Assembly (NCBI RefSeq): GCF_001713395.1
Contig: NZ_CP016452.1
Location: forward strand, 1,736,001-1,800,000
Length of the DNA: 64,000 nt
Origin: Sinorhizobium sp. RAC02
Lineage (GTDB): Bacteria; Pseudomonadota; Alphaproteobacteria; Rhizobiales; Rhizobiaceae
Reading direction: 5' to 3'
Shown: positions 5,093 through 43,629 of the stretch, piece after piece
Position numbering within the stretch: the stretch's first letter is position 1
Layout: the number at the start of each line of letters is the position of its first letter
Notes under the pieces: generated by a model
The model's input: the letters and a program-made list of their open reading frames with translations, nothing else
Databases searched by the model: none
Told to the model about the DNA's origin: nothing
Made by a program: the position numbers and the translations under genes

Positions 5093-5230
5093 CGTTTTCT
5101 CCGATCATCGCAACATCGTGTTGCGAAACCTATCGCATCTATCGGAGCGCGGATAAAATCGATATTATTCTAGAAAATTAAGAATTTATCGATATCATGG
5201 AAGCGTCAATCTCAAAGGTCTTGGCCTCTC
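5093..5230. promoter_or_regulatory. Divergent pbfA / LysR regulatory region with repeated ATCGATAT
   Basis: This 138-bp AT-rich gap separates divergent pbfA and a LysR gene. ATCGATAT occurs twice, at 5158-5165 and 5188-5195, exactly 30 bp apart (about three helical turns). The second copy contains TATCGATA, an octamer also found before phnW at 15695-15702. The arrangement is typical of a LysR binding region, but the operator assignment is inference. Confidence 0.45.
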
Positions 5231-6115: not shown

Positions 6116-6116
6116 T

Positions 6117-6983: not shown

Positions 6984-7082
6984 GACACCCTTAATTTTTC
7001 TAATCCTACCTCACGGTAGTCGCGTTTGCCTGGCCTGGCAAGAACGACTCCAGTGCGGTCCGATCAGGATCGTGGGCACCTC

Positions 7083-9098: not shown

Positions 9099-9100
9099 CC

Positions 9101-10273: not shown

Positions 10274-10316
10274 CTGCAAGCTCCGCTGGCTGTCAGGCAA
10301 TGGTCGAGAATGCGAA

Positions 10317-10342
10317 GGGCGGAGCGCGAAAACGCCCCGCCC
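10317..10342 (-). other. Intercistronic RNA hairpin after the AEP binding-protein gene
   Basis: A 10-bp inverted repeat with one mismatch (GGGCGGAGCG, six-base loop, CGCCCCGCCC) lies between the binding-protein and ATPase genes, without a U-run. Such hairpins often protect the binding-protein mRNA and allow it to be expressed above the membrane components. The effect here is inferred. Confidence 0.45.
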
Positions 10343-10354
10343 GGTCGATCAGGA

Positions 10355-11377: not shown

Positions 11378-11608
11378 GATTGAAAATCTCCTCTGAAGGC
11401 CTGGAAAAACCGGGGAAGCACGGCGGGCGATCTAGGCGTCGCCCTTGTAGGATCGGCTTCAGGAGGCATTCTGCGCATTGGTTTTCAGTAAGTAAAATTT
11501 ATTATTCTTATCAATCGGAAGATAAAACCTATAGATCGTTTGCCGCTAAAACAGGCAGCCGCGTCACGTTTGCCGCCGCAATTGCCATAACCCGCCCAAC
11601 CGCAGGCA

Positions 11609-11639
11609 ACAAAAAAGGAGCCGCACGAAGCGGCTCCCG
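11609..11639 (-). terminator. Rho-independent terminator of the phnWAY operon
   Basis: On the minus strand, directly after phnY, GGAGCCGC, a five-base loop and GCGGCTCC form a perfect 8-bp stem (11617-11637) followed by six U. This is a standard intrinsic terminator and separates phnWAY from the transporter operon, which therefore has its own promoter in the remaining AT-rich gap. Confidence 0.85.
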
Positions 11640-26990: not shown

Positions 26991-28160
26991 TCACCGCTGC
27001 AACGCACCACGCAGGGTATCGACGATGTAGCGTTGCTCGTCGTGCGTGAGGTTTGGGTATAGGGGAAGCGTCAAGGCTTCCCTATAATAGTGTTCCGTCT
27101 CTGGAAGATGAGTATCGACGTGACCATGTTCCCGCCAGTAAGGCTGCGTATGAACTGGAATGTAATGAACATTCACACCAATATTGTGAGCTGTCATTAC
27201 GTCAAAAACCGCTTTCCTGTTTGGAGAGCCGGCTACGTCCGGGACACGAATGATATAGAGGTGAAAAGCAGAATAGGTGTCGTTTCGGCGGTACGGTGTC
27301 ACGACGGGAATGTCGCTCAGCAAGGCGTCGTAGCGGGCGGCAAGAGCGTGACGCGCTGCGACGAAAGCATCGAGACGTGCCATCTGGCTTGCCCCAAGTG
27401 CCGCCTGAAGATCCGTCAATCGATAGTTGAAACCTAGGCCTTGCTGCTCGTAGTACCATGGGCCGTCCGGGACCTTGGACATAAGATCCGGTGCCCTTGT
27501 GATGCCGTGGCTACGTAGCAAAGCCATTTTTGCAGCTAGCTCATCATCGTTGGTCGTCACCATGCCGCCTTCGGCGGTGGTGATGATTTTTACAGGATGA
27601 AAGCTGAAAACTGTGATGTCCGAAAACTCACATCTCCCGACAGGCGTGCCCTTGTACTTTCCGCCAACGGCGTGCGACGCGTCCTCAACGATTTTGAAGC
27701 CGAATTCGCGAGACAACGCTGCAATCGCTTCCATGTCGCAGGACTGTCCCGCCATATGAACCGGGATGACAATCTTGGGAAGCCTGCCATCGACCTTGGC
27801 CTGCTTGAGTTTGGCCTCCAAACGTTCCGGGCAAAGGTTGAACGTTACGGGGTCGATGTCTACGAAATCGACGTCAGCCCCAAGATAGCGGCCGCAGTTC
27901 GCGGACGCCACAAAGGTAATGGACGACGTCCACAGCAAATCGCCAGGACCAAGGCCCAGGGCTGCGCAGGCGATGTGTAGCGCCGAAGTCGCGCTATTGA
28001 CCGCCAGCGCATGCCGCACGCCACAATACTCAGCGACCGCCGCCTCGAAACGAGGCACAGCTGGCCCCTGCGTCAGAAAATCCGACTGGAGGGTCTCAAT
28101 GACTGCTGCCACGTCAGCATCATTGATGTCCTGGCGGCCATACGGGATGCGACCGCTCAT
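26991..28160 (-). CDS. pseC: UDP-4-amino-4,6-dideoxy-N-acetyl-beta-L-altrosamine transaminase
   Basis: A 389-residue DegT/DnrJ/EryC1-family PLP aminotransferase. The start IPYGRQDINDADVAAV, SITFVASANCGRYLGADVDF, IVEDASHAVGG and the PLP lysine in FSFHPVKIITTAEGG are all typical of PseC. It adds the C4 amino group to the 4-keto sugar from PseB, the second step of CMP-pseudaminic acid synthesis. The ATG at 28160 overlaps the pseB stop (ATGA), so translation is coupled; a longer in-frame extension into pseB is rejected. Confidence 0.92.
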   Translation of the reverse strand: MSGRIPYGRQDINDADVAAVIETLQSDFLTQGPAVPRFEAAVAEYCGVRHALAVNSATSALHIACAALGLGPGDLLWTSSITFVASANCGRYLGADVDFVDIDPVTFNLCPERLEAKLKQAKVDGRLPKIVIPVHMAGQSCDMEAIAALSREFGFKIVEDASHAVGGKYKGTPVGRCEFSDITVFSFHPVKIITTAEGGMVTTNDDELAAKMALLRSHGITRAPDLMSKVPDGPWYYEQQGLGFNYRLTDLQAALGASQMARLDAFVAARHALAARYDALLSDIPVVTPYRRNDTYSAFHLYIIRVPDVAGSPNRKAVFDVMTAHNIGVNVHYIPVHTQPYWREHGHVDTHLPETEHYYREALTLPLYPNLTHDEQRYIVDTLRGALQR

Positions 28161-29155
28161 ATTTTTCCAATCTTGTGGCTGTTTGCTTCTATCCATACCC
28201 CGAGCTCACTGGAACTCATCCATTCAGTGTTGTTGTCGCTCGTGTAAGCGAAGTCAGGCGCAACCTTCTTGCCGACCTTGATCCGCTCTTCGGAAATATG
28301 CCAGTTGTGAATTGCCGGCAGAATTTTGTAATAGCTATCGTATTCGTAGGTGTATTCAGCATCCTCAAGACCGATCATCTGCTCATGCAGTTTTTCACCA
28401 GGCCGGATGCCGACGATCTTGTGTTGAGCATCGGGGGCAACGGTCATCGCAACGTCCGTAACCTTCATGGACGGAATACGCTTCACGTAGATCTCGCCGC
28501 CGACCATGTCGTCGAACGCGTGCCAGACCAACTCCACACCCTGCTCCAGAGTGATCATAAAACGTGTCATCCGCTCATCGGTAATCGGAAGTTCACCTGA
28601 ATCCCGAACAGACATGAAGAACGGAATGACTGAGCCGCGCGAGCCCATCACGTTCCCATAGCGAACGACGGCAAATCGCGTTTCGTGGCTGCCCGCATAG
28701 GAATTCCCGGCGATAAACAACTTGTCAGACGCGAGCTTGGTAGCACCGTAAAGATTTATCGGGCTGCTTGCCTTATCGGTGGACAAAGCAACGACGCGCT
28801 TGATGCCACGATCAATGCAGGCGTCAATCAAATTCATTGCGCCGTTAATGTTCGTCTTGACGCATTCGAATGGATTGTACTCGGCGGTTGGCACGATTTT
28901 CGTCGCCGCAGCATGAACAACGTAATCAACGCCGTCGAGGGCGCGGTAAAGTCGCTCGCGATCACGCACGTCACCGATGAAGAAGCGCACACGCTTGTCA
29001 TGGCCGTATTTCTGCGCCATTTCCCACTGCTTCATCTCATCTCGGGAGTAGATGATCAGTCGCTTTGGGTTGAATTTCTCCAGAGTCATCGGCACAAACG
29101 TGTTGCCAAACGAACCTGTTCCGCCGGTTATCAGAATTGTACTATTATTGAGCAT
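28157..29155 (-). CDS. pseB: UDP-N-acetylglucosamine 4,6-dehydratase (inverting)
   Basis: A 332-residue extended SDR of the PseB/FlaA1 family: ILITGGTGSFGNTFV, SRDEMKQWEM, VVHAAATKIVPTAEYNPFE and the STDKAS / YGATK catalytic region. It converts UDP-GlcNAc to the 4-keto-6-deoxy-L-arabino sugar, the first committed step to pseudaminic acid. GAGG lies just upstream of the start. It pairs with pseC on the minus strand, divergent from pseG across 237 bp that must contain both promoters. Confidence 0.94.
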   Translation of the reverse strand: MLNNSTILITGGTGSFGNTFVPMTLEKFNPKRLIIYSRDEMKQWEMAQKYGHDKRVRFFIGDVRDRERLYRALDGVDYVVHAAATKIVPTAEYNPFECVKTNINGAMNLIDACIDRGIKRVVALSTDKASSPINLYGATKLASDKLFIAGNSYAGSHETRFAVVRYGNVMGSRGSVIPFFMSVRDSGELPITDERMTRFMITLEQGVELVWHAFDDMVGGEIYVKRIPSMKVTDVAMTVAPDAQHKIVGIRPGEKLHEQMIGLEDAEYTYEYDSYYKILPAIHNWHISEERIKVGKKVAPDFAYTSDNNTEWMSSSELGVWIEANSHKIGKI

Positions 29156-29392
29156 TTTGCCTCGTCAAACCATTTAGACTCTCTAGGATTCAGCATCCAT
29201 GTCCGCAGCCTTTTAGCCAATAGCCTCTGAACTGCCAAGAAGGAAAGGATCGGTTCAGGTGATAATAACAGAAACGGCAACTTCCGCTCTTGGAGAGAGC
29301 CGTCTAAAAGGTAGCTCCACCCCGGTGAAAAATAGCTCTTGGGTCGGGAACTATCCACAGTGATCTTATGCGGCGATTCAAGACCTGACAAA

Positions 29393-30490
29393 ATGAGCAC
29401 AAGCGAACGATCCAGCGCACCTCGGAAACTTCTCATAGTCTGTGACAGCGGCCCAAATATTGGCTTTGGGCACCTCATGAGAAGCAGGGCAATAGCCGAT
29501 ACGGCGTGCCGAAACGGGATCGAGACGACGATCATTGGCCCCAAGCTACATTACTCGAACGAGCACGACAGAACCCGTTTTGCGGAGTGGATAGAATATC
29601 CAGAAAAGGGCGTCGACGGATGGGAGGACTGGACCCGATTACTGACACGGGTCGCGCAATCAAAAGGAGTTCGGCACGCAATAATCGATGACTATAGAGT
29701 CCCTAGTGCTCAGCAATTGGTGCTTCGGGAACATGGACTACGCATACTTCACCAATATGACGCCAGCGCCCCTCCTTCTTTTGCCGCCAACCTCGCCGTA
29801 AACGCCAGCCCGGCGGAAAGCGCGGCGCGCCACGCAAAGCAGTTGCTTCGCCATGATGTCGACTTCTTGAATGGGCCACGCTTTGCCGTGATAAGGGAGG
29901 CATTCGCCGCGACAGCCGTGCGCCCCATTGAAAGACCGGTCCGGCGAATTTTGGTTACGTTCGGTGGGGGAGACGACCGCGGCGGGATAGGGTTTTCAAT
30001 TGGGTCATTGGCGCCAGCCTTGCGGCTGCGGCCTGACATAAGGCTTGTCGTGATGACCAGCGCGCAGAATCCCAATGTATCGGCAATCAAATCGCTGATT
30101 GAAGGGCAAGGGCTTTCCAATGTCGACATCGAACTTGATCATCCAGACGTTCCCGCGTTGATGGCTTCCTGCGATCTAGCGGTTATGGCCGGTGGCACAT
30201 CAGTCTATGAAGCGGCCTTCTGTGGCCTGCCGATGATATTGATCGCGATTGCCTCTAATCAAGAAGGGCAATGCAAGGGATGGGACGGGCTCCGCGCCGC
30301 GCGCTATCTCGGCAACATCCAGGAGTTGCGTGAGCGCCATTTACTCAGCTGCACCCTCTCGCTACTTGACGACCGAGACGCAAGAATGAATATGGCGCGC
30401 GCCGGTAGGGACAATGTTGATTTAAAGGGCGCGACAAGACTTCTTGAGGCTTTGTTTGAACGCGAACTGGGATTTGAGGTAATTCAATGA
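29393..30490 (+). CDS. pseG: UDP-2,4-diacetamido-2,4,6-trideoxy-beta-L-altropyranose hydrolase
   Basis: A 365-residue GT-B-like hydrolase of the PseG family. GFGHLMRSRAIADTA is the PseG signature near residue 23, with IIDDY, ILVTFGGGDDRGG, and DLAVMAGGTSVYEAAFCGLP in the C-terminal UDP-binding half. It removes UDP to give the free trideoxy hexose used by PseI. The ATG at 29393 (MSTSERS) is chosen because the family start lies near the LLIVCDSGP strand; a TTG 54 nt upstream extends further. Its stop overlaps the following ATP-grasp gene (ATGA). Its natural substrate carries an acyl group at N4, yet no PseH is present, which bears on its neighbours. Confidence 0.85.
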   Translation: MSTSERSSAPRKLLIVCDSGPNIGFGHLMRSRAIADTACRNGIETTIIGPKLHYSNEHDRTRFAEWIEYPEKGVDGWEDWTRLLTRVAQSKGVRHAIIDDYRVPSAQQLVLREHGLRILHQYDASAPPSFAANLAVNASPAESAARHAKQLLRHDVDFLNGPRFAVIREAFAATAVRPIERPVRRILVTFGGGDDRGGIGFSIGSLAPALRLRPDIRLVVMTSAQNPNVSAIKSLIEGQGLSNVDIELDHPDVPALMASCDLAVMAGGTSVYEAAFCGLPMILIAIASNQEGQCKGWDGLRAARYLGNIQELRERHLLSCTLSLLDDRDARMNMARAGRDNVDLKGATRLLEALFERELGFEVIQ

Positions 30491-31638
30491 ACAATACCGT
30501 GCTGGTGCTGGGAAGCAATGCAGGGCAGACAGACCTGATTCGCCATATGAAGTCTCGTGGCTGGCGAACGGTGGCGTGCGCGCATGTCAGGAATCTTCCA
30601 GGCGAAGCTATCGCTGATGCGTTCGAGCAAGTCGATGTGCGGGATCCGGATGCCGTCGCAGCGCTTGCAAAGCGAGTGGGCGCAGACTTGGTCTATTCGG
30701 TCTCCTCGGACCTGGCCATCAAGACGGCAGTAAGCGTATCAGAGCGCCTGGGATTGCCACATTTTTACAGCAGCGATTTCATCGACCTCCTTGATCAAAA
30801 ACACAAACTTCGTGCTCACCTCAATCAGAACGGGCTCAGTGAAGTTGCATATAAGCAGGTAACTAGCGCATCCGAAGGAAAGGGATGGTCGTCGTTTCCC
30901 TGCGTCGTCAAGCCTGCCGATGCGCAGGGCCAACGGGGAGTTGTGGTCGTCAAGGACAGCGACGAGCTGCTTGGGGCCTTGGACGCCGCGATTTTATTGT
31001 CTCCCAGCAAAACAGCGGTGGTAGAAGCCTACTTAGATGGCGTTGAAATTTCTTCGAATGTCCTCGTCTATCAAGGCGAGGTCGTTGTGAATGAGGTTTC
31101 GGAACGTCTCGTACACAGCGGTCACCTGTTTGGAATTCCGCGCGGTCATCTCGTTCCCTGTTACAATGTGTCCGAGGAAATGCGAGCTGCTGCGCGCCAA
31201 CTTGTCCGCGATGTCGTCGCCTCGTTGCAGATCACAAGCGGTTGCTTGTATTTTCAGATGAAAATCACGCCGGACGGTCCGAAGATAATTGAAATCGCCC
31301 CCCGGCTCGACGGCTGCCACATGTGGCGTCTTATATATCACGCCCGTGGTTTTGATTTTCTAGCCGCCACCGTAGACGTATTGCTCGGCAAGGCCCCCGC
31401 GCTAGCCCTGCGGCGGGAAGACATACCCCTTCATGAGTTGCTGTTCCAACAGACCCCGCCGGGCAGCGTCTTTCAAGAAGCCGATTTTCCTGTACCAGCA
31501 AACGCGCACTATCACGAATACCGCTATTCTGACGGAGAGACGGTATTGCCTATAAACGGCCTTATGGAAGTGGTTGGCTATTATGTACGCATGACCCCGG
31601 CGGATGAGGTCAGCAAATATGGTGCGGACAAACGATAA
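30487..31638 (+). CDS. ATP-grasp ligase in the pseudaminic-acid cluster
   Basis: A 383-residue ATP-grasp protein. A pre-ATP-grasp Rossmann-like part (NTVLVLGSNAGQTDLIRHMKSRGW) precedes the nucleotide region (FPCVVKPADAQGQRGVVVV, VVEAYLDGVEISSNV) and the Mg-binding strand KIIEIAPRLDGCHMWRLI. Such enzymes join a carboxylate to an amine through an acyl phosphate. It is coupled to pseG (4-bp overlap) and to the epimerase gene (1-bp overlap). No PseH acetyltransferase is in the window, so it may acylate or aminoacylate an amino group of the nonulosonic acid or its precursor. That role is inference; the substrate cannot be read from sequence. Confidence 0.8.
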   Translation: MNNTVLVLGSNAGQTDLIRHMKSRGWRTVACAHVRNLPGEAIADAFEQVDVRDPDAVAALAKRVGADLVYSVSSDLAIKTAVSVSERLGLPHFYSSDFIDLLDQKHKLRAHLNQNGLSEVAYKQVTSASEGKGWSSFPCVVKPADAQGQRGVVVVKDSDELLGALDAAILLSPSKTAVVEAYLDGVEISSNVLVYQGEVVVNEVSERLVHSGHLFGIPRGHLVPCYNVSEEMRAAARQLVRDVVASLQITSGCLYFQMKITPDGPKIIEIAPRLDGCHMWRLIYHARGFDFLAATVDVLLGKAPALALRREDIPLHELLFQQTPPGSVFQEADFPVPANAHYHEYRYSDGETVLPINGLMEVVGYYVRMTPADEVSKYGADKR

Positions 31639-32552
31639 TGCGCGTTGCTGTAACCGGCGGGAATGGCTTCATAGGAAGCTATTTGTGCAAAAGGCTTCTA
31701 GATCGCGGAGATGACGTGGTCTGTATCGGGAGATCGCATGAATCTCTCGAGCAGATCGAGGGAGCCGTCGAAAGACATGTAACAGACTTCAGTCCCCAAG
31801 ACATAACAACCGCAATGGCCGGTTGCTCCGTCCTCATACACCTCGCTGGCAGGCGAAGTGTGCGCGGGGAAGACATGGAGCTTGTCGCAGAATTTGCGCA
31901 TACTGGCCTCACGATGCTTGATGGATTGCTCAGGGGTGCTTTGGCAAATGGCTTGAGACAGGTTGTGCAGGCGTCATCGATAGCGGTATATTCCGGGGCC
32001 AATACAAAGCCCTATTTCGAAAAAGAAGTTCCGATACCTGCAAGCAACTATGGATTGGCAAAGCTCTTCTGCGAACAGTACGCAGACTGGTGGAGTTCGC
32101 GGCATGGGATACCGGTTGCACATCTTCGCCTTGCGGCATCCTTCGGAGCTGGCGAACGCCTATCGCCGGCGCTAATGAACATTAGCGACCGCGCCTTTCA
32201 AAAAAAGAAAGTCAAGATTTCGGAGAGTGGACGCCACGCAATCGATCAAATTTATGTCGCGGACGTAGTCAATGCTATTCTGCGCATAGTAGATAACGGC
32301 GCCAAAGGCGCCTATAACATTGGTTCCGGCAGGGCCGTCAGTGTTCTTGAAATAGCAGAAACGGCAAACGATGTGTTCGGCAACGACGGAAACCTCGTCG
32401 TCGAGCCTGCCAATGAGCATTCCCGGCCCTCGGGAATCCACAATCATATGGTTATAGACCGCGCGCGCGAGCAGCTTGGCTGGGAGCCGGAATACACCTT
32501 AAGGCGTGGCCTTGAAGAAATGAGAGACAAATGGAGCTTGCTGCAAAAATGA
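31638..32552 (+). CDS. NAD-dependent epimerase/dehydratase (extended SDR)
   Basis: A 304-residue extended SDR with the NAD motif VTGGNGFIGSYL, catalytic YGLAK near residue 135-140, and the C-terminal QIYVADVVNAILRI and GAYNIGSG motifs. It resembles sugar-nucleotide 4-epimerases, reductases or dehydratases. It is coupled to the ATP-grasp gene upstream (TAATG) and to pseI downstream (ATGA), so it probably modifies a precursor in the same pathway, for example by making an epimer or reduced variant. It is not part of the canonical six-enzyme pseudaminic acid route. Confidence 0.82.
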   Translation: MRVAVTGGNGFIGSYLCKRLLDRGDDVVCIGRSHESLEQIEGAVERHVTDFSPQDITTAMAGCSVLIHLAGRRSVRGEDMELVAEFAHTGLTMLDGLLRGALANGLRQVVQASSIAVYSGANTKPYFEKEVPIPASNYGLAKLFCEQYADWWSSRHGIPVAHLRLAASFGAGERLSPALMNISDRAFQKKKVKISESGRHAIDQIYVADVVNAILRIVDNGAKGAYNIGSGRAVSVLEIAETANDVFGNDGNLVVEPANEHSRPSGIHNHMVIDRAREQLGWEPEYTLRRGLEEMRDKWSLLQK

Positions 32553-33625
32553 CCACGTCTAGTGTTCCGACGATCAAACAGGCCCTCTATGCTGGCACGC
32601 CGAAAGCCAATGACACGACCCCTTTCATCATCGCGGAGATGTCGGGCAATCACAACGCGTCACTCGAAAGAGCGCTGCGGATGGTCGATATCGCGGCCGA
32701 AGCAGGAGCAGATGCAGTCAAGCTGCAGACTTTCAAGCCGGAAACGATGACCCTCAACGTCAAGAAAGAGGGTTTTACGGTTACGGCAGAAAAGTCGCTT
32801 TGGAAGGGCAGAGAGCTGTTCTCGCTTTTTAAGGAGGCACAGACTGCTTGGGAATGGCATAAGCCAATTTTTGAACGGGCCAAAGAGCGAGGCATTCTTT
32901 GCTTCAGCTCCGCATTTGACGAAAGTTCCGTCGATTTCCTGGAGGAGATGGGCGCGCCAGCTTATAAAATTGCCTCGTTTGAATGCACCGACGTGCCTCT
33001 TATTCGATACGTCGCCCAGACAGGCAAACCGATGATCATTTCGACGGGAATGGCTTCACTGGGTGAAATCGAAGATGCGGTCGGGGCGGCGCGAGACGGC
33101 GGGTGCACAAACCTGACCCTGTTGAAGTGCACCAGCACTTATCCAGCAACGCCTGAGACGAGCAATCTGCTCACTATACCGCATATGAAGAGCCTGTTCG
33201 GTTGCGATATCGGACTGTCCGACCATACTCTCGGGATCGGTGCCGCGATCGCGGCTGTGGCATTCGGTGCGACAGTTATCGAAAAGCATTATACGATTGC
33301 TCGGGCCGACGGCGGTGTCGATTCCGCGTTTTCGCTAGAGCCCGACGAATTCAAAAGCCTCGTGACTGAAACGAAAGTGGCCCACGCTGCTCTCGGTAGG
33401 ATCAGCTACGGCGCATCTGCCGAGGAACAACATGCCCGGTCCAAACGCCGCTCACTATATATTGCAGCAGACATGGCCAAAGGAGACATCCTGACAAAGG
33501 ATAATCTCAAGCGCATCCGGCCAGGCCTCGGCCTAGCCCCGAAATACTACGAAAGCATGTTGGGACGCAGGGTAAACCGCGATCTGGAAATAGGTACGCC
33601 TTTCACGCTTGAGTTGATTGGATGA
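32549..33625 (+). CDS. pseI: Pseudaminic acid synthase
   Basis: An approximately 358-residue NeuB-family synthase. PFIIAEMSGNHN, ADAVKLQTFKPETMTL, AFDESSVDFLEEMGAPAYKIASFE, LLKCTSTYPATPE and DIGLSDHT lie in the TIM barrel, and the C-terminal antifreeze-like SAF domain (SLYIAADMAKGDILTKDNLKRIRPGLGL) starts near residue 295. It condenses the trideoxy sugar with phosphoenolpyruvate. The PseI-type MSGNHN argues for pseudaminic rather than sialic or legionaminic acid. The ATG at 32549 overlaps the preceding stop; an ATG at 32531 is an alternative. Confidence 0.92.
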   Translation: MTTSSVPTIKQALYAGTPKANDTTPFIIAEMSGNHNASLERALRMVDIAAEAGADAVKLQTFKPETMTLNVKKEGFTVTAEKSLWKGRELFSLFKEAQTAWEWHKPIFERAKERGILCFSSAFDESSVDFLEEMGAPAYKIASFECTDVPLIRYVAQTGKPMIISTGMASLGEIEDAVGAARDGGCTNLTLLKCTSTYPATPETSNLLTIPHMKSLFGCDIGLSDHTLGIGAAIAAVAFGATVIEKHYTIARADGGVDSAFSLEPDEFKSLVTETKVAHAALGRISYGASAEEQHARSKRRSLYIAADMAKGDILTKDNLKRIRPGLGLAPKYYESMLGRRVNRDLEIGTPFTLELIG

Positions 33626-33827
33626 TGGCGTTTGGACACCACCCCGAGGTCTTCGGTGTCGCTGGAGCGCGTAACATATCAACCAGCGTTGCGGCCCGAT
33701 CTTCGGTCTGCCTCCCGGCAGCTCTTAGTCCATGCCCCAATCGCGGCCCGGAACTGTTGTCGCTTGTGACCGTACACGGGCATCGAGAACGCAGCAGAAA
33801 CACACTGATCTTGAGGAAGGTTCCACA

Positions 33828-36800: not shown

Positions 36801-36962
36801 AAGATCTATCCGCCTTTCTGGTTTCAGGAGGATGTGGCCGACATAGATAAGCGCGACGCCTCTGCGGCGATACTTGTTGATCGCGCACTGGGCCTGCGAG
36901 CCGAACCAGGTGGCAGGATTGAAGACACCGCGCCTGCCGCCCTCCCACAAGAGGTTCCATAA
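33828..36962 (+). CDS. Large fusion: helical-repeat region plus capsule-type GT-B glycosyltransferase
   Basis: A 1044-residue cytosolic protein without signal peptide or membrane segment. Roughly residues 10-560 are alpha-helical and TPR-like, with a polar low-complexity insert near 220-250 (PDDTQPDDTQNELDND). Residues about 560-1000 look like a capsular polysaccharide synthase/KpsS-like GT-B transferase: LVFARTVGMMSNYPIMAL, KPHPHE at 853-858 and YNGTTAVELGIMGIPCVLAGH at 906-926. Placed between pseI and pseF, it is the best candidate for the enzyme that transfers the CMP-activated nonulosonic acid to its acceptor (capsule, LPS or flagellin), with the helical part perhaps binding a protein acceptor. 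ATG 33828 follows GAGGAAGG. The GT call is moderate; acceptor and donor are inferred. Confidence 0.7.
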   Translation: MERAMIAPQKPSNGRWTIKRYLAPLSLKVALKFAEYGYPNKALAVLRWRNPKAALQLQADLLRRMGREAEAREMSVRALRKILANFTRANNITGMLRVLAQLEALGGSGQTAAGKKIVNYLSNKDDREKLSHATEAILKAYPESKYLLYLAVLTRSLLGDYRTSANRIETLLADSAVLTDRKKKPQFTFYVQCWDVIDRIARENVDWSSEDVSDGGAPQLEFNTPDDTQPDDTQNELDNDGPIRAETIAHLPIANDASPDSVLGAQVHFFKETLIEGRRQAEFLALCEEEFRNAPALSSKISTIRQMLRVGRRQLPDYRPAYERASACLDEVMAEIRETLLEADPLTLITQKRISTLCQLLVLVRKLGRRELAEEINQLFVVLAKHKKVGPDIWQAAAVIAAEADCHEHADAVIRATQRLKPKHENDIRNYLRYAVLAQQYKAGATFVASLAKGFRQRACCIHYAEILRRQGLFKEAETLVAGILGNILANPKALKPVQCYQIFIQKGELEFLRQTADILREQQQPQKPKEIVLVFARTVGMMSNYPIMALREFKRRGWALIPVVEGHFPLDKTGDPDIDAMSYAITKNAELSTAASKILPPLENFAFSLDEGRVSWDDIDLSHPLWEDASIKRRRYSVVWECPELQQTSETLVNWTKSAARVLSHVQSLQQKDPELRVAIVGLFSSRLPDALLRFYCDTNGNPDRLFFLHAANGYQNYFNNFSTNVSERFVLRNMTRFPQARSASFPLPDNFANYYDEKRREADEILERFEGVTRVKRSTMGQRERSPDAEAARKRILEWRAQGGKVACAFGKVVCDSGTPFNGGPTHENMSDWINHCVRVVENTKTLLLVKPHPHETNNQVATFPTEYFRDLITEPLGENVMFLGNRWFDMHDMGELIDIGLIYNGTTAVELGIMGIPCVLAGHFAPIDYPIGHVAPQTRSEFEEYLRFEKIAHVSSDIKKRSAVWLNYMSDENFTVDYRFHTRQITNKKIYPPFWFQEDVADIDKRDASAAILVDRALGLRAEPGGRIEDTAPAALPQEVP

Positions 36963-37012
36963 GGGCATGGTGGGTACAACCAAGCACCGCTACCAAGTCA
37001 GGATCTAGTTTC

Positions 37013-37726
37013 GTGCAAATCGCGATCATACCCGCCCGGGGAGGAAGCAAACGCATTCCGCGTAAAAACATATTGCCTTTCCTTGGTCGCCCGATGCTGA
37101 GTTGGCCAATCTCGGCTGCGGTTCGCAGTGGGCTTTTTGATAGGGTAATCGTATCAACCGACGACGATGAGATCGCCGACGTGGCTCGAAGCGCAGGCGC
37201 GGAAGTGCCGTTCAAACGGCCGGAGGAAATTTCAGACGATTTAACGCCGACGCGCGCGGTCATCAATCACGCCATCAATAGCGCCGAGACCTTCTTCGAT
37301 CGAAGGGTGGATTTAGCGTGCTGTATCTATGCCACCGCACCGATGATCGAGCCCGATGACCTTTGTGCTGCACATGCGTGCCTGACGACAGAACCAAACG
37401 TCGATTTCGTCTTCGCTGCCGCGCATTTCGCGTACCCGGTCCAAAGAGCTTTGGTGGCAAATGAAAGCGGAACAGTCGATATGCTTTGGCCCGAGTATCG
37501 TACGACCAGAAGCCAGGATTTACCGGAAGCATTTCACGATGCCGGACAGTTCTACTGGGGACGTCGCGACGCATTCCTTGAGAATAAACCGATGTTTTCG
37601 GATCACGCCCATCCCTATATGATGCCGAGATCACGTGTTCAGGATATCGATACGCCAGAAGACTGGGCGTTTGCTGAGAAGCTGATGCAGCTTCATCTTC
37701 AACTTCCCTCGTCACAACGGCCATAG
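37013..37726 (+). CDS. pseF: Pseudaminic acid cytidylyltransferase
   Basis: A 237-residue CMP-sugar synthetase: IAIIPARGGSKRIPRKNI is the CTP-binding motif, followed by VIVSTDDDEIADVARSAGAEVPF and the C-terminal MPRSRVQDIDTPEDWAFAE. FHDAGQFYWGR is characteristic of PseF and related nonulosonate enzymes. It activates the finished sugar as the CMP derivative for transfer. The start is a GTG at 37013 with AGGATC upstream. It is the last gene of the low-GC part of the glycan island. Confidence 0.9.
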   Translation: MQIAIIPARGGSKRIPRKNILPFLGRPMLSWPISAAVRSGLFDRVIVSTDDDEIADVARSAGAEVPFKRPEEISDDLTPTRAVINHAINSAETFFDRRVDLACCIYATAPMIEPDDLCAAHACLTTEPNVDFVFAAAHFAYPVQRALVANESGTVDMLWPEYRTTRSQDLPEAFHDAGQFYWGRRDAFLENKPMFSDHAHPYMMPRSRVQDIDTPEDWAFAEKLMQLHLQLPSSQRP

Positions 37727-38146
37727 ATTTTTAGCATCAGAAGTAGATCCCTATGGGGGCATAACCAGCTTTGGCGTGGAATGACGATAAAGTCAGGATC
37801 TCTATCCTCCTTCGCCCTCTTGCGGATACACAACGATTCTCTGACTAGGCTGTTTGGGGCCACTTTTAATGGTGCTGTATGTTGTAAAATTTGCCAACCT
37901 GGACCGGGTTTCTTTGAGAAGGTGATTATTTCATTGATTACTTTCCAATAGAGATCAACAGGGAGGCTTTATTATTCAGGGCTCAGCAATTGGGAAAGTT
38001 ACCCTGCGCTCTATGATCTTGATCGGGTCTCGCGCAGAACGTTGATGATTTTGTCGGGAGCCGACGCCGGGAGCTGACACGATCAACGTTGCGTCCTATC
38101 TCACCTCATGATATTTGCGCTCGTTCGCAAAGAGGTGAAGCCAGCA
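37727..38146. other. AT-rich gap between pseF and the acyl-transfer gene set
   Basis: A 420-bp low-GC stretch with no convincing gene. It holds an inverted repeat of AACGTTGAT (38040-38048) and ATCAACGTT (38083-38091) shortly before the AAC(3)-FkbH start. It marks the change from the low-GC pse genes to the higher-GC downstream set, which suggests the two parts were joined separately; it probably contains the promoter of the second set. Confidence 0.4.
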
Positions 38147-40684
38147 ATGCAACTTGATATTGAGGAAACCCGCGCGCGCCCTTCTTCCGAACATTCCGAA
38201 ATCGGAGATGCGACATCGCGCGTCGCCTTCTACAGCGCGCTGAAAGCCGTCCTCTCTGGCGAACCATCCATCGCCGTTGTCCACAATTCTCTTTCGTCCC
38301 TGCTTGCCGAGCGCAGCTTTGGGCGTTTCGATGCCCTTTATGCTCTTAATCGTCTTGCGCGCGAAGGCTGGACCTTCGCCATACCGGCGTTCACCTTCAG
38401 CTTCTGCCGGGGTAAGACATATAGCTATCGCAACAGCCCGTCGGAAGTCGGTCTCCTTGCGGACTGGGCGCTGAGTGGTCTTCCGACCGCGCGCCGCACC
38501 GCGCATCCGATTTATTCCTTCGTCGTCTTTGGTCCAAGCGCCGCCGACATTCTTGCCTGTACCGGTGAAACGACATTCGGACGCGGCTCGACATTCGAGT
38601 TTTTCGAGGCTAACCGCGCGACGATCGTCATGCTCGGCTGCGGCTGGAACTATTGCACCCCGTTCCATCGGTATGAGGAACTGGCCAAAGTCCCTTATCG
38701 CTACATGAAGACGTTCACCGGCGAGGGCGATTTCGGCACAGGGTCCGCTCAGGTCACGGCACAAATGTATGTGCGTGATCTGCAAGCAGACCCTCGCAAC
38801 GACTTTATGCCTGCGGTGAAGGAACTACGACGCAGGGGGGCGATCAAGACCGCTAAGCTCTGGCGCGGCGTTGTCGAGTCGGTAGCCATGAACCACTTGG
38901 CCGAAGTCTGCCGCGAGCAGCTCAAGGCGGACGGCTACGCCCATGTCAGCAATGGGCCGGCTGTCTCCCAGAGTTTCGCCGCCCGACGCGCACGCGAGCG
39001 TCAGGGACCGCTGAAGGTAGCGGTGCTTGGCAGCTCGAATGTGGAGATCCTCCGCGCAGCACTGGAGGGGGAAGTCGCCGCGCATGTGCAGGACCGTACC
39101 GTCGAAACGTTCAGCGTGCCTTATGGACAGATGCAGCGCGCGCTCATCGACCCTTCCGTCGGGCTTTTGGGCTTCGGTGCCGAATACACGCTTTTTGCAG
39201 ACAGGCTCGAGGACGTCGCCGCGACGGTTTCCATCGATGGGATAGACGCCGGACTGCTTCACGACCGCGTTGCCGACTATGCCGACGCGATCGTGCACTA
39301 TCGCCAACAAGCGCGCGGCTGGATATTCGTCGCGCGCTTCGCAGCATTGCGCGCGACCGGCGAGAGTTCCACCACTCAGGCACGCCTGATCGCGGAGATG
39401 AACGGCATTCTGGAAGCGGCGCTGCAAGGCGTCGACCAGATCGCCTGGATCGACATGGCACAGCAGGCAGCTCTTTCGAAAGGGCGCGTCACCGACGACC
39501 GCTTGTGGCATCTCGGGCGCTTCCCCTTCACGGAGCCTTTCTCGCAGCAACTGGCCAAGCACGTGACCGGACTGGTTCTTGCTGCAATGGGCAAGACCGC
39601 ACGCGTCCTGGTCGTCGATCTCGACAACACGATGTGGGGTGGAGTGCTCGGCGAAGACGGCATCGACGGCGTGAAGATTGCCGGCGACTATCCAGGCAAC
39701 GCCTTCCTCGCCTTCCAGAAGGCGCTACGCACCCTGGCACGCCGTGGGATAGCGATTGCCATAGCCAGCAAGAACGACACCGATCTAGCCTTGAAGATGA
39801 TCGATGAACATCCGGGCATGGAGATCCGCAGCACCGACATCGTCACGCACAGGATAAACTGGAGCCCGAAGTTCTCGAACATCCAGGAAATTTGCGACGA
39901 ACTGAGCCTTGGCTTGGAATCGGCGCTCTTCATCGACGACAATCCGGTCGAGCGCGAAGGCGTCAAACGGAATCTCCCTGCCGTCAAGGTCCTGGATCTT
40001 CCTCCCGACCCCGCCGAATATGCCGAGACGCTGCTTTCTTCGCCGTGGCTTGGCGTTATCTCCGTCACGGCTGAAGATCTGAAGCGGGTCGAAAGCTACA
40101 AGAACCGCGCCAAGATCGAACAGAGCCGCAAGACGGCCGTGAGCCTGGAGGATTTCTACAAAAGCCTCGGCATGACCTTGCATATGAAGCCGGTCGACGC
40201 CACCAACATCGCCCGTGCAGCGCAGCTCTGCAAGAAGACCAACCAGTTCAACACCACCACTCGGCGCTACGAGGCCGCCGATCTCACCGCGATTGCCGCT
40301 GCCGGCGGAGATGTGGCCGTCATCGCGCTGGAGGACAAGTATTCCGGCGAGGAGAACATCGGCCTGATCATCGTGAAGGACCATCCCGACAGGGAGGCGG
40401 CGGGCCTGATCGACCTCTATCTGATGTCCTGCCGTGTGTTGGGTCGCGGCCTGGAGACCGCAATAACCCGCTGGGCGATGACCCGCGGAACGCGGCGCGG
40501 CTGGCGGGAACTCAGGGGGCCCATCATCGAGACGGAACGCAATACCCCGGTTCGAGGTGTGTATCGGGACACCGGATTCGCTTACGAGGAAGCTTCGGGC
40601 GAGTGGGTGGCGGCATGCAGCCCCGATGTGGCCCTGCCGTCCTACCTCACCATTGCCGATCACATGCCGACTTCCAGCCGCTGA
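38147..40684 (+). CDS. AAC(3)-type N-acyltransferase fused to FkbH-like HAD-IIIC acyl-loading protein
   Basis: An 845-residue fusion. Residues about 10-265 resemble AAC(3)-family acyltransferases (VVHNSLSSL, AIPAFTFSF, TAHPIYSFVVFGP with the catalytic-type His, TPFHRYEE). Residues about 285-470 are SGNH/linker-like, and the HAD motif VVDLDNTMWGGVLGEDG starts at 489 (Asp491 and Asp493). A GNAT-like C-terminal half (KKTNQFNTTTRRY, EDKYSGEENIGLIIVKD) is standard for FkbH. FkbH enzymes load a glyceryl-type unit onto an acyl carrier protein; AAC(3) enzymes acylate sugar amines. An ACP is encoded in the next gene. I infer synthesis and transfer of a non-acetyl N-acyl group onto an amino sugar. ATG 38147 follows GAGGTG; ATG 38108 has no ribosome site. 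Confidence 0.8.
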   Translation: MQLDIEETRARPSSEHSEIGDATSRVAFYSALKAVLSGEPSIAVVHNSLSSLLAERSFGRFDALYALNRLAREGWTFAIPAFTFSFCRGKTYSYRNSPSEVGLLADWALSGLPTARRTAHPIYSFVVFGPSAADILACTGETTFGRGSTFEFFEANRATIVMLGCGWNYCTPFHRYEELAKVPYRYMKTFTGEGDFGTGSAQVTAQMYVRDLQADPRNDFMPAVKELRRRGAIKTAKLWRGVVESVAMNHLAEVCREQLKADGYAHVSNGPAVSQSFAARRARERQGPLKVAVLGSSNVEILRAALEGEVAAHVQDRTVETFSVPYGQMQRALIDPSVGLLGFGAEYTLFADRLEDVAATVSIDGIDAGLLHDRVADYADAIVHYRQQARGWIFVARFAALRATGESSTTQARLIAEMNGILEAALQGVDQIAWIDMAQQAALSKGRVTDDRLWHLGRFPFTEPFSQQLAKHVTGLVLAAMGKTARVLVVDLDNTMWGGVLGEDGIDGVKIAGDYPGNAFLAFQKALRTLARRGIAIAIASKNDTDLALKMIDEHPGMEIRSTDIVTHRINWSPKFSNIQEICDELSLGLESALFIDDNPVEREGVKRNLPAVKVLDLPPDPAEYAETLLSSPWLGVISVTAEDLKRVESYKNRAKIEQSRKTAVSLEDFYKSLGMTLHMKPVDATNIARAAQLCKKTNQFNTTTRRYEAADLTAIAAAGGDVAVIALEDKYSGEENIGLIIVKDHPDREAAGLIDLYLMSCRVLGRGLETAITRWAMTRGTRRGWRELRGPIIETERNTPVRGVYRDTGFAYEEASGEWVAACSPDVALPSYLTIADHMPTSSR

Positions 40685-40843
40685 TTGCCCGGCCACGTTT
40701 CAGAGACCCGACCATGAAGCAGTTCCCGCCTGCCACGACCGGATATCTGCCCAAGAGACCACGCGTTTTGACTGTGCCGATGGACCGCGCCCTGCTGTCG
40801 GTCCCCGGCAGCCATCTTCAAAGCAACAACACCCGAGGTACAT

Positions 40844-42325
40844 GTGACATTGACCACAGCCTTTGATCGATTCCAGATCGGCGATCACATTGTTTTCGAC
40901 AAAACGTTCGACCAGTCGCAATTCGATGCGTTCTCGAGCCTGAGCGGCGACCGCAATCCGTTCCACCACGATTCGGCCTATGCAGCTCTCCAGGGCTCTG
41001 ACCCGCGCACGATCGTGCCTCTGCACATGACGCTCGCACCTCTCTCCATGATCGCCGGCATGGTCTTTCCGGGCGAGCCCTCCCTCTATCTCGGGCACGA
41101 GATCCGAGCCGCGAAGCCGGTCCACTATGGTGAAACGCTTCGCTATTCGGCGCGCATCGAAAGCGTCAACCAAAGCCATCACGTTCTTAACCTGCGGGTG
41201 CTGGCCCTGAAAGGCTCGGCGATCGTCCTTGATGCCACGATGCGGGTGCAGGCGCGATATGCCGATTGGGAATTCAATCCGCTCCATCCGATCCGGCGCG
41301 AAGAGGATGCTACAGCGCTCATTACCGGCGGCTCCGGTGAGATCGGCCAGGCAATCGCGGTCGCGCTGGCGCGGCAGGGTTACAGGTTGCTGCTTCAAGA
41401 CCGCGGGCCTTCCGCGCGTCGCGACACCCTGGCCGCATTGCTTGAACACGAGAAGGCCAGCTTCGAATTCGTGGCCGCCGACCTCGCCTCCGGGACGGGA
41501 CGCTCGGCTTTGACGCACGAGATCAAGGCGTACCGGGATCTTGGCCTCGTCGTTCATGCGGCGTCGGCTCCGGTCGAAGCCTCCGCGGAGACCCATGTCG
41601 CCATCGCATTCTCGGCTCTGGAGGCCATTGCCCAGGCCGCGCTACCCACCATGCTCGCTCGGCAAAGCGGTGCTTTTGTGTTGCTGGGAACCGTCGCTGT
41701 GGAAACGTTCCCACCGGGTTGGGAGGCCTATGCGGGCGCCAAGATGATGGCGACGCAGAGCCTTCGCTCGCTCGACACCGCGAACCGTCCCTACGGCGTC
41801 ACCGGCCATACACTTGCACCGGGATATGTGGCCACTGCCTTTTCAGAAGCATATCGCGGCCCCGAAGCGTCGGCCTTGCTTCCCGCCGAGGTCGCATCGC
41901 GCCTGCTTACCCTGCTGAATGACCGCAAGTCCCTCGACCGTGACATGATCATCGAGCCCGGCAGGATCGAGCGCGGGCGTTTCGGCTTCGTGCCGGCCGG
42001 ATCGCGGGTCCAGTCTTCCGCTTCGCCTGCCGGCGGGTTGCAGGAAGGGAGTGCCACCTCACTTGCGAGCGCGCCGAATGGCGGCGGATCGGACACCCAG
42101 CTGCAGCGCACAGTCCTGGCGGCGCTCAAGCTGCCGGCCGACTACGACCTCACCGGCGGTGGGCTTGGCATAACTCCCGGTTGGGACTCTCTTCGCCACA
42201 TCGAGCTTCTGCTAACGATTGAAAACCAGTACGGCGTGCGGTTCACCTCGGGCGAGATCGACGCCACGCACCGCCTGGATCAACTCACCCGATTGCTTCA
42301 GCAGAAACGGCAGGTGCAAGTATGA
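40844..42325 (+). CDS. MaoC hydratase - SDR ketoreductase - acyl carrier protein fusion
   Basis: A 493-residue three-domain protein. Residues 1-145 are a MaoC-like hot-dog hydratase with the SGDRNPFHHD motif (Asp36, His41). Residues 150-385 are an SDR (TGGSGEIGQ, YAGAK at 296-300), where the usual catalytic Ser is Thr283. Residues about 420-490 are an acyl carrier protein, with the phosphopantetheine site Ser449 in GWDSLRHIELL. Together these can reduce and hydrate or dehydrate an acyl chain held on the ACP, for example to give a 3-hydroxyacyl group. The start is a GTG at 40844 after GAGG, because an ATG two bases earlier meets a stop at once. Its stop overlaps the next gene (ATGA). Confidence 0.85.
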   Translation: MTLTTAFDRFQIGDHIVFDKTFDQSQFDAFSSLSGDRNPFHHDSAYAALQGSDPRTIVPLHMTLAPLSMIAGMVFPGEPSLYLGHEIRAAKPVHYGETLRYSARIESVNQSHHVLNLRVLALKGSAIVLDATMRVQARYADWEFNPLHPIRREEDATALITGGSGEIGQAIAVALARQGYRLLLQDRGPSARRDTLAALLEHEKASFEFVAADLASGTGRSALTHEIKAYRDLGLVVHAASAPVEASAETHVAIAFSALEAIAQAALPTMLARQSGAFVLLGTVAVETFPPGWEAYAGAKMMATQSLRSLDTANRPYGVTGHTLAPGYVATAFSEAYRGPEASALLPAEVASRLLTLLNDRKSLDRDMIIEPGRIERGRFGFVPAGSRVQSSASPAGGLQEGSATSLASAPNGGGSDTQLQRTVLAALKLPADYDLTGGGLGITPGWDSLRHIELLLTIENQYGVRFTSGEIDATHRLDQLTRLLQQKRQVQV

Positions 42326-43629
42326 ATGATATGCCACAGAATCTCGCAGGGCCGGAAGAAGGGTTGGCGATGCATGCGCTCGCCACCGAACTGTTTCCCA
42401 TCTGCCGGAGCATCACCGGTGACGGCGTGCGTCAGACCTTCGATATCCTGAAGCGCTACTGCCCGAATCTCGAGACCTTTTCCCTCAAGTCAGGCGAGCC
42501 GGTGCTTGACTGGACGATACCCGACGAGTGGAATATCCGTTCGGCGCGGCTTATCGGTCCGTCCGGCGAGGTGATTTGCGACTTCGCGGACCACAACCTT
42601 CACGTGGTTGGATACTCGGAGCCCGTCGATCGCGTGTTGTCGCTTGAAGAGCTTCAGCCGCATCTGCACTCCCTGCCGGATCAGCCCGACGCCATCCCCT
42701 ACGTCACCTCCTACTACCGCCGGTATTGGGGCTTCTGCATCCCTCACAGCAAGCGTGCAATGCTGCAGCCGGGATCGTATCGCGCGGTGATCGACAGCAC
42801 GCTTGCACCGGGCGAACTGATCTATGGTGAGGCCAAAATCCCCGGCGAAAGCGAGGAGGAGATTTTCGTCTCCACCTATATCTGCCACCCATCGATGGCG
42901 AACAACGAACTGTCGGGACCGATGGTCACGACATGGCTGGCGCGATGGATCGCCTCGGCGCCACGGCGCTACAGTTATCGCATCGTCTTCGTACCCGAAA
43001 CGATCGGCTCGATCGCCTATATCAGCCGAAATCTTGCTGAAATGAAGAAGCGTATCGTCGCGGGCTTCAATGTTTCCTGCGTCGGTGACGACAGGGTCTA
43101 CTCCTATCTGCCGTCGAGGGACGGCAACACATTGGCCGACCGCGCGGCCAAGCATGTTCTCGCCCACATCGATCCCGACTATATCCGCTACCGATACCTC
43201 GACAGAGGCAGTGACGAGCGCCAATATTGTTCGCCCGGCGTGGATCTGCCGGTGGCTTCCGTTATGAGGTCGAAATACGGTCGCTATCCGGAATATCATA
43301 CGTCGCTCGACGACCTGACGCTTGTAACCCCGGCGGGTCTCCAGGGTGGGTTGGATGCGCTCAAACGCTGCATCGAGTGCATCGAAGGCAATCTCCGCTA
43401 CAAGGTGACGGTTTTGGGCGAGCCGCAGCTCGGTCGGCGTGGCCTCTATCCCACGATGTCCACGAAGGGTAGCGCCGCGGGCGTGCGCTCCATGATGAAC
43501 TTCATCGCCTATGCCGATGGCACGCGCGACTTACTGGATGTCGCCGAAATCATTGGCACGCCGGCATGGGAGCTTCTCGATTTCGCGCGAAAGCTGGTGG
43601 AACACGGACTTATGGAAGCCGTCGATTGA
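42322..43629 (+). CDS. DUF4910 / aminopeptidase-like zinc protein of glycan clusters
   Basis: A 435-residue protein of the DUF4910 (with DUF2172) family, distantly related to M28-type peptidases. It shows LFPICRSITGDGVRQTFDIL at the N-terminus, STYICHPSMANNELSGP (metal-binding type His), FVPETIGSIAYI, GSDERQYCSPGVDLPVASVMRSKYG and YPEYHTSLDDLTLV, with a winged-helix-like C-terminus. The family recurs in polysaccharide and flagellin-glycosylation clusters next to ACP and FkbH genes, but its reaction is not established to my knowledge; amidohydrolase or acyl-transfer activity on an N-acylated sugar is a reasonable guess. It is translationally coupled to the MaoC-SDR-ACP gene. Confidence 0.82.
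   Translation: MNDMPQNLAGPEEGLAMHALATELFPICRSITGDGVRQTFDILKRYCPNLETFSLKSGEPVLDWTIPDEWNIRSARLIGPSGEVICDFADHNLHVVGYSEPVDRVLSLEELQPHLHSLPDQPDAIPYVTSYYRRYWGFCIPHSKRAMLQPGSYRAVIDSTLAPGELIYGEAKIPGESEEEIFVSTYICHPSMANNELSGPMVTTWLARWIASAPRRYSYRIVFVPETIGSIAYISRNLAEMKKRIVAGFNVSCVGDDRVYSYLPSRDGNTLADRAAKHVLAHIDPDYIRYRYLDRGSDERQYCSPGVDLPVASVMRSKYGRYPEYHTSLDDLTLVTPAGLQGGLDALKRCIECIEGNLRYKVTVLGEPQLGRRGLYPTMSTKGSAAGVRSMMNFIAYADGTRDLLDVAEIIGTPAWELLDFARKLVEHGLMEAVD

Follow-up and report, generated by a model that had tools for sequence, protein, structure and literature searches.

The nonulosonic acid (NulO) island described here is located in Sinorhizobium sp. RAC02, within a stretch of 64,000 nt (NZ_CP016452.1, positions 1,736,001 to 1,800,000) which is referred to as the window and to which all coordinates of the island refer. 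The island encodes pseudaminic acid biosynthesis proteins and was compared with the closest described systems. The canonical PseBCHGIF route of Campylobacter and Helicobacter includes PseH, which acylates the 4-amine of the sugar before PseG acts. Islands without PseH are known as such: among Aeromonas strains, 58 were reported to carry pseG only, 125 both pseG and pseH, 22 pseH only and 4 neither (PMC7874193), and no clear PseH orthologue is reported for Shewanella oneidensis (PMC3765264).

Cj1295 of Campylobacter jejuni has been described as a DUF2172 protein, putatively of the M28 family (PMC6321876). It has also been assigned to a family involved in polysaccharide biosynthesis, with a domain resembling aminopeptidases, and its knockout loses 5-N-(2,3-di-O-methylglyceroyl) pseudaminic acid; removal of the C5 acetyl group by Cj1295 was the proposal of those authors, who tabulated Cj1296/7 as an N-acetyltransferase (PMC3068675). 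Dimethylglyceroyl sugars were reported as absent from strain 12664, in which cj1302 (encoding an fkbH domain) is present only as a pseudogene, and from strain 12661, which lacks cj1301 (PMC7099621); these strains also differ in other genes, so that the association is a correlation. In the Clostridium acetobutylicum cluster CA_C2186-2199, a DUF4910 protein of known structure (3k9t) is encoded alongside NeuB, an ATP-grasp ligase, a nucleotidyltransferase, an epimerase, N-acetyltransferases (one with a HAD domain) and an acyl carrier protein (ACP), and transacylation or deacylation of an amino sugar was suggested (PMC4000134, Table 2).

Similar to the canonical systems, the window was shown to encode PseB, PseC, PseI and PseF, all scoring above the NCBIfam cut-offs (Table 1), as well as a PseG-like hydrolase. 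In contrast to these systems, its PseG is divergent, no PseH was detected above background, and an ATP-grasp protein and a short-chain dehydrogenase/reductase (SDR) are encoded between pseG and pseI. Gene families were assigned on the basis of the curated cut-offs of Pfam and NCBIfam, with some domains named by eye only. Despite its score below the cut-off, TIGR03590 was the top family for the pseG product, which contains the GFGH motif and matches the UDP-sugar hydrolase structure 3hbm (E 4.2e-7), presumed to be that of C. jejuni PseG. An initial annotation had already listed these five Pse proteins and the lack of PseH in the window; the SDR and the DUF4910 protein at the end of the span (Table 1) had been left unnamed.

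The gene content, the gene fusions, their conservation elsewhere and the lack of a PseH-like GNAT above genome background are consistent with an island that combines a PseH-less pseudaminic-type NulO route (module 1) with independent N-acyl remodelling (module 2), a reading which we consider evenly balanced between right and wrong and for which we infer the substrates, the acyl identities and their positions.

The absence of PseH was examined across the complete genome (G000; 6.63 Mb, 99.99% complete, three contigs). The PseH family TIGR03585 reached at best 27.7 bits, against a cut-off of 93.1, while 13 of 14 control genomes contained matches, one of them above the cut-off. A GNAT of Bradyrhizobium jicamae (L007), the gene of which is flanked by pseG and pseI, scored only 30 bits, indicating that TIGR03585 is insensitive to divergent PseH proteins; its score was therefore dropped as sole proof of absence, and a second search was performed using a profile of 13 pse-linked GNATs. 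Across four contributing genomes, this profile assigned 154-206 bits to the linked GNATs and at most 60.5 bits to secondary GNATs; since these four positives belonged to the training set, the comparison serves to calibrate the profile and does not test it independently. The RAC02 genome yielded 14 matches with a best score of 55.2 bits, and the related genome G878 (see below) reached 51.3 bits, both at background level. The B. jicamae GNAT used as a query gave no match in the RAC02 genome. The possibility that PseH had simply been overlooked was rejected, as none of these three genome-wide searches returned a standout candidate.

The ATP-grasp gene overlaps pseG by 4 nt (30487-30490), in agreement with the coupling reported initially, and is followed by overlaps of 1 nt with the SDR gene and 22 nt between the SDR gene and pseI. 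Homologues were sought in 397 genomes of the order and in plasmid records, for which stretches of ~21 kb were retrieved. Within the order, the ATP-grasp gene was found besides RAC02 only in G878 (86% complete), where locus L102 follows the gene order of the window: pseG (50%), ATP-grasp (69%), SDR (68%), pseI (82%) and a gene of the 1076-aa type, with pseC nearby; no match to AAC(3)-FkbH, MaoC-SDR-ACP or DUF4910 was obtained within 19.5 kb. Plasmid records of Marinovum algicola (L140), Tritonibacter mobilis (L141) and Paracoccus denitrificans (L142) each contain pseB, pseC, pseG, ATP-grasp, SDR and pseI, with pseF recognised in the latter two. The ATP-grasp gene of M. algicola is split over two frames, pseI, pseC and pseB of P. 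denitrificans are located on the opposite strand, and the T. mobilis locus encodes DUF4910 and a stand-alone AAC(3), with no FkbH or ACP match in its stretch.

In all five loci, the ATP-grasp gene directly follows pseG and precedes the SDR gene, and no PseH-like GNAT was detected in the stretches read (0/5). The five associated PseG proteins form a single clade with a support of 100/100 and a long stem, which is suggestive, as the hydrolase required to accept the N4-acylated sugar differs in ATP-grasp-bearing loci. Because the window is the only one of these loci to encode AAC(3)-FkbH in the stretches read, the loss of PseH appears to go with the ATP-grasp ligase and not with the ACP line. Furthermore, ATP-grasp-SDR adjacency was observed in a sixth locus, on a plasmid of Jannaschia sp. 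M317 (L143, 9989-15458), where the pair (ATP-grasp at 38%) adjoins a CatB-like acetyltransferase gene and is located 2.4 kb from a gene named as dTDP-4-amino-4,6-dideoxygalactose transaminase (rffA; another 4-amino-sugar maker); with no pseG or pseI match in 21 kb, this locus points to a possible use of the pair for other 4-amino sugars.

The predicted structure of the ATP-grasp protein (pLDDT, the predicted local distance difference test score, of 93.2) displayed a complete ATP-grasp fold. Its nearest folds were 4dim and the L-amino-acid ligases BL00235, RizA and BacD, together with PurT and PurK, while biotin carboxylases scored alike; the top matches of its sequence profile were 4dim and the L-amino-acid ligase 3vot. 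The prediction thus places the protein among the carboxylate-amine ligases and their kin, a fold which does not by itself tell the substrate. The L-amino-acid ligases (BL00235, 3vot; RizA, 4wd3; BacD, 3vmm) share this fold with near full-length matches, yet display only 14-19% identity, and for the window enzyme an amino sugar is the proposed acceptor. The literature searched held no description of an ATP-grasp protein in a PseH-less Pse locus.

To define the usual context of pseI, PseI was searched across the class and detected in 65 of 385 genomes, and all 64 places outside RAC02 were taken, each covering at most 20 kb (13 were shorter than 15 kb). PseH-like GNATs scoring at least 100 bits were present in 45 of these 64 alphaproteobacterial contexts, in 41 of the 51 contexts of at least 15 kb and, in 40 of 64 cases, within 3 kb of pseI. 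This cut-off was chosen over 60 bits (at which the count is 46/64) because an unlinked GNAT of the RAC02 genome scores 67 bits using a self-trained profile. ATP-grasp proteins of the window type were found in none of the 64 contexts at E 1e-8, with a single 24% match (E 3e-4) in L169.

Both protein fusions of module 2 reported in the initial annotation proved to be genuine. In AAC(3)-FkbH, the FkbH part scored 281.1 bits against TIGR01686 (cut-off 146.65) and the AAC(3) part matched the superfamily PF02522 (E 6.6e-20), with 34 bits against the NCBIfam equivalog for AAC(3) resistance, the cut-off of which is 270. Residues H187, D504, D506 and C775 are invariant across 21 aligned AAC(3)-FkbH sequences, including that of the window, and H187 presumably represents the catalytic histidine of the AAC(3) family. 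FrbF (3sma) is a sequence relative of this protein and acts on a nucleotide-linked amine. The ACP domain of MaoC-SDR-ACP scored 13.1 bits in Pfam, below its cut-off of 20.8; the serine of its GWDSL motif (Ser449), previously put forward as the phosphopantetheine site, and the YxxxK motif of the SDR domain are both retained in 9/9 aligned rows, including that of the window. One homologue (L099, 1427-2908) has lost the MaoC active-site motif and retains the SDR and ACP motifs. A homologous ACP (39-56% identity) is located at the C-terminus of AAC(3)-FkbH itself in 8 of the 120 homologues listed.

At least 129 homologues of AAC(3)-FkbH were identified in the protein database, and the corresponding loci are scattered among Alphaproteobacteria, Riflebacteria and enterobacterial plasmids. 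The fusion was rejected as a common trait of the relatives of RAC02, being present in 1 of 397 genomes of the order at E 1e-90 (RAC02 itself). It was found in 4 of 398 genomes of a phylum sample, RAC02 included; in a family sample, 4 of 199 genomes matched at E 1e-60, the three others through the FkbH part only. A contig scan returned mostly plain FkbH, with a fused AAC(3) at E 1e-5 in L007-L010 among the 80 loci listed. Eleven module 2 loci were read (the window, L007-L010, L093-L095 and L097-L099, the last three spanning only 10.7-16 kb). DUF4910 was encoded near AAC(3)-FkbH in nine of these, the exceptions being Erwinia and Rahnella plasmids, and a NulO synthase in five (the window, L007, L008, L010 and L093). 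In L009, AAC(3)-FkbH-ACP is a single protein accompanied by DUF4910, with no MaoC-SDR match within 10 kb. Conversely, the components are unfused in a metagenome-assembled genome (MAG) of Anaerohalosphaeraceae (L081, 7335-11719), where ACP, AAC(3), MaoC, methyltransferase and FkbH are encoded directly after a second aminotransferase gene and where the pse genes include a PseG-GNAT fusion. DUF4910 and a stand-alone AAC(3), with no FkbH match, were observed in L141, L153 (13252-15140) and L159 (11765-16517), and in the latter two loci these two proteins perhaps represent the minimal N-acyl exchange pair. A Comamonadaceae MAG (L025, 10001-13805) contains a weak AAC(3) match (E 6e-4) beside FkbH, ACP and MaoC-SDR, and is a possible divergent cassette.

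The DUF4910 gene overlaps that of MaoC-SDR-ACP by 4 nt, and its product matches 3k9t (E 1.6e-102); it was placed with Cj1295 by shared family, DUF2172 being the published description of the latter. The window thus combines DUF4910/DUF2172, FkbH, ACP and an N-acyltransferase in one locus. We take Cj1296/7 to be AAC(3)-like and Cj1299 to be an ACP. The published Campylobacter account likewise places a DUF4910/DUF2172 protein, an FkbH gene (cj1302) and an N-acetyltransferase (Cj1296/7) in one flagellin-glycan locus, although C. jejuni possesses PseH (PMC7910423), and in the window AAC(3) and FkbH form one protein and MaoC, SDR and ACP another. The C. acetobutylicum cluster differs from the window in that PseB, PseC and PseG do not appear in the published table, and its function was only inferred there (PMC4000134). 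FkbH domains are known to load unusual units onto ACPs (PMC4552970), and the window protein shares the ACP association and the DxD motif of FkbH proteins of polyketide pathways; unlike these, it is fused to an N-acyltransferase, and no polyketide synthase was found among the island genes. The company kept by DUF4910 genes is therefore already published, and what is added here is the fused form, its separation from the loss of PseH and an interpretation that takes the Campylobacter product into account. In view of the DUF4910 neighbour and of the ACP-bearing AAC(3)-FkbH homologues, the initial suggestion of an ACP-borne, non-acetyl N-acyl group of hydroxyacyl or glyceryl type on the NulO is plausible and represents the best reading. 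The accompanying remark that no characterised version with this gene set was known overlooks Campylobacter, for which the product has been identified, although the enzymes responsible are uncharacterised in the literature searched.

According to the favoured two-module reading, PseB and PseC would generate UDP-4-amino-4,6-dideoxy-L-AltNAc, the 4-amine of which (C7 of the NulO) would be amidated by the ATP-grasp enzyme, with its partner SDR, from a free carboxylate, perhaps that of an amino acid, via an acyl phosphate, thereby replacing the acetyl-CoA-dependent PseH. The co-evolved PseG would accept this product, and PseI and PseF would complete the synthesis of CMP-Pse. In module 2, FkbH would derive a C3 acid from 1,3-bisphosphoglycerate and load it onto the ACP domain of MaoC-SDR-ACP, yielding D-glyceryl-ACP, which MaoC and SDR may convert to lactyl-ACP by dehydration and reduction, a conversion proposed here. 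The DUF4910 protein is a candidate sugar N-deacylase or transacylase that would act on the N-acetyl group at C5, either removing or swapping it, in line with the proposal made for Cj1295; the ACP-borne acyl group would be moved to this C5 amine by the AAC(3) domain. If MaoC-SDR makes the lactyl group, loci without it, such as L009, would make glyceryl amides. In its complete form, with an aminoacyl-type group placed at C7 by the ATP-grasp enzyme and a glyceryl or (with MaoC-SDR) lactyl group at C5 by the cassette, so that neither N-acyl group depends on the usual acetyl-CoA step, this scheme is tentative and somewhat unlikely to hold throughout.

The initial annotation had assigned the ACP assembly line to the place of PseH, with AAC(3)-FkbH and the ACP acylating the 4-amine before PseG. 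The absence of PseH from an island that encodes an AAC(3) acyltransferase fits such a swap, as do the activity of FrbF on a nucleotide-linked amine and the failure to recognise any further linked N-acyltransferase of CoA type in the scanned genes of the window. However, PseH-like GNATs accompany cassette genes in B. jicamae, in L081 and in L053, where the GNAT scores 107.3 bits and exceeds the TIGR03585 cut-off. Moreover, of the seven sampled PseI contexts bearing AAC(3), FkbH or DUF4910, six also encode a GNAT of at least 100 bits at some position within the context (L153 and L159 with DUF4910 and AAC(3); L154 with DUF4910; L179, L199 and L204 with FkbH), the seventh (L174, with FkbH) having one of 53 bits. 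The four other PseH-less module 1 loci lack AAC(3)-FkbH in the stretch read (Tritonibacter has the stand-alone AAC(3)) and share ATP-grasp and SDR with the window, and the Campylobacter glyceroyl group is at C5 rather than C7. The cause first given for the absence of PseH is therefore probably wrong, and replacement of PseH by module 2 is considered improbable. A different explanation retains the N7-acetyl group, with an unlinked GNAT acting as PseH and the ATP-grasp enzyme as a later tailoring enzyme, for instance adding an amino acid to Pse. Amino-acid tailoring of Pse has a precedent in the Pse5Am7Ac8GlnNAc of Campylobacter (PMC3068675), 14 genomic proteins match the pse-linked GNAT profile, and L155 and L165 carry pseB, pseC, pseF and pseI with no GNAT match in the sampled 20 kb. 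As neither RAC02 nor G878 showed a score above background, and as the ATP-grasp gene directly follows pseG in all five loci, with its own PseG clade, this explanation is regarded as unlikely.

Alternatively, module 2 may act on another amine, either of a second amino sugar or of a non-sugar, its pse neighbourhood being incidental. Plasmids of Erwinia rhapontici (L094, 10462-21454) and Rahnella sikkimica (L095, 10462-21369) encode AAC(3)-FkbH and MaoC-SDR beside an aminotransferase, a CDP-alcohol phosphatidyltransferase, an ATP-grasp protein and a major facilitator superfamily transporter, with no NulO genes in the stretch read, and look like a small-molecule cluster (perhaps for a phosphonate) that reuses the acyl cassette; the second aminotransferase gene beside the unfused set of L081 points in the same direction. 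Against this, the window island yielded no recognisable second sugar aminotransferase, five of the 11 loci encode a NulO synthase near the module (of the remaining six, three offer at most 16 kb) and Cj1295 is reported to affect Pse, which makes another target quite improbable.

Several points weigh against the favoured reading of two modules. The Fisher values for mutual exclusion of GNAT and ATP-grasp (0.004 and 0.0008 at 100 bits) treat loci as independent, the ATP-grasp loci were obtained by searching for ATP-grasp itself, and the GNAT profile of the survey was trained on the same 64 contexts; because the five PseG proteins form one clade, the exclusion may reflect a single ancient event. 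As many as 19 of the 64 contexts contain neither a 100-bit GNAT nor a window-type ATP-grasp, some being only short contigs; since Aeromonas and S. oneidensis also lack PseH, its absence alone proves little, and a very divergent unlinked GNAT serving as PseH is possible. With respect to module 2, the substrate of FkbH (1,3-bisphosphoglycerate, giving a glyceryl unit) and the precedent for a lactyl unit (bryostatin) are drawn from general background. Searches of the literature returned nothing on FkbH with lactyl, the available text of the bryostatin/FkbH paper (PMC4552970) containing no lactyl information, and nothing on FkbH with aminoglycoside and ATP-grasp. FkbH is not always accompanied by DUF4910, and the scanned window genes near module 2 include no recognised methyltransferase, a possible further difference from the Cj1295 system; a Pfam TylF methyltransferase gene adjoins the module in L008 and a methyltransferase was recognised by eye in L007. 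Finally, an Asp of 3k9t is replaced by Asn in eight of nine cassette DUF4910 copies, which makes ordinary metallopeptidase chemistry uncertain, and DUF4910 proteins are described as lacking a standard metallopeptidase site (PMC4000134).

PseH-less islands being known, greater novelty and testability lie with the proposal that an ATP-grasp/SDR/PseG unit stands in for PseH. Tied to one PseG clade, ATP-grasp and SDR represent a concrete candidate for PseH-less pseudaminic-type pathways, including that of P. denitrificans, while the DUF4910/Cj1295 family is tied to a compact fused N-acyl cassette. If correct, ATP-grasp together with this PseG clade would mark a new PseH-independent route in alphaproteobacteria, P. 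denitrificans among them, the C3 acid transferred could be predicted from whether a locus encodes MaoC-SDR, and sequence data would allow chemists to forecast the N-acyl variants of sialic-acid-like sugars in bacteria.

Table 1. Genes of the NulO island of Sinorhizobium sp. RAC02 (positions in the window)
Gene or product	Position	Strand	Assigned or candidate role	Module	Family match
pseC	26991..28196	-	Pyridoxal phosphate (PLP) aminotransferase yielding UDP-4-amino-4,6-dideoxy-L-AltNAc		TIGR03588, 546 bits (cut-off 423.5)
pseB	28157..29155	-	UDP-GlcNAc 4,6-dehydratase (inverting)		TIGR03589, 539.3 bits (cut-off 407.75)
pseG, divergent	29339..30490	+	UDP-sugar hydrolase	1	TIGR03590, 124.2 bits (cut-off 153.55)
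ATP-grasp	30487..31638	+	Amide ligase (candidate PseH substitute)	1	PF13535
Extended SDR, NAD-dependent epimerase type	31638..32552	+	ATP-grasp partner	1	PF01370, E 1e-35
pseI	32531..33625	+	Pseudaminic acid synthase		TIGR03586, 479.3 bits (cut-off 340.25)
1076-aa protein	33732..36962	+	Accompanies module 1		No accepted Pfam domain
pseF	37013..37726	+	CMP-pseudaminic acid synthetase		TIGR03584, 306.5 bits (cut-off 205.7)
AAC(3)-FkbH	38108..40684	+	AAC(3)-like N-acyltransferase fused to FkbH (HAD and acyl-ACP loading)	2	PF02522, TIGR01686
MaoC-SDR-ACP	40844..42325	+	MaoC dehydratase, SDR reductase and ACP fusion	2	PF01575, PF00106
DUF4910/DUF2172	42322..43629	+	M28-like protein with winged helix-turn-helix (wHTH), Cj1295 family	2	PF16254, 334.1 bits; PF09940, 125.8; PF16221, 86.5
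TPR-repeat protein	43759..45000	+			TPR families; N-terminal alpha/beta-hydrolase look by eye, no Pfam match there

Besides the genes of both modules, the 1076-aa protein gave no Pfam match above cut-off and, read by eye, possibly consists of a TPR-like region and a capsule-type glycosyltransferase; its homologues occur in L102, L140, L141 and L142 at 33-44% identity. In P. denitrificans, a 655-aa asparagine-synthase-like protein (by eye) is encoded between the SDR gene and the gene of the 1076-aa type (L142, 12049-14016), and an Asn_synthase gene is located two genes from NeuB in L008. A second NulO locus of the RAC02 genome (L221, G000:C1:2712500-2732000, 4530-11626, - strand) encodes a NeuB-type synthase, a stand-alone FkbH (35% to that of the window) and a CMP-transferase, as well as a NeuC-like protein and a 326-aa GNAT-like protein, both recognised by eye. 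Homologues of the TPR-repeat protein adjoin pseI in two module 1 loci (L140, 33%; L141, 32%).

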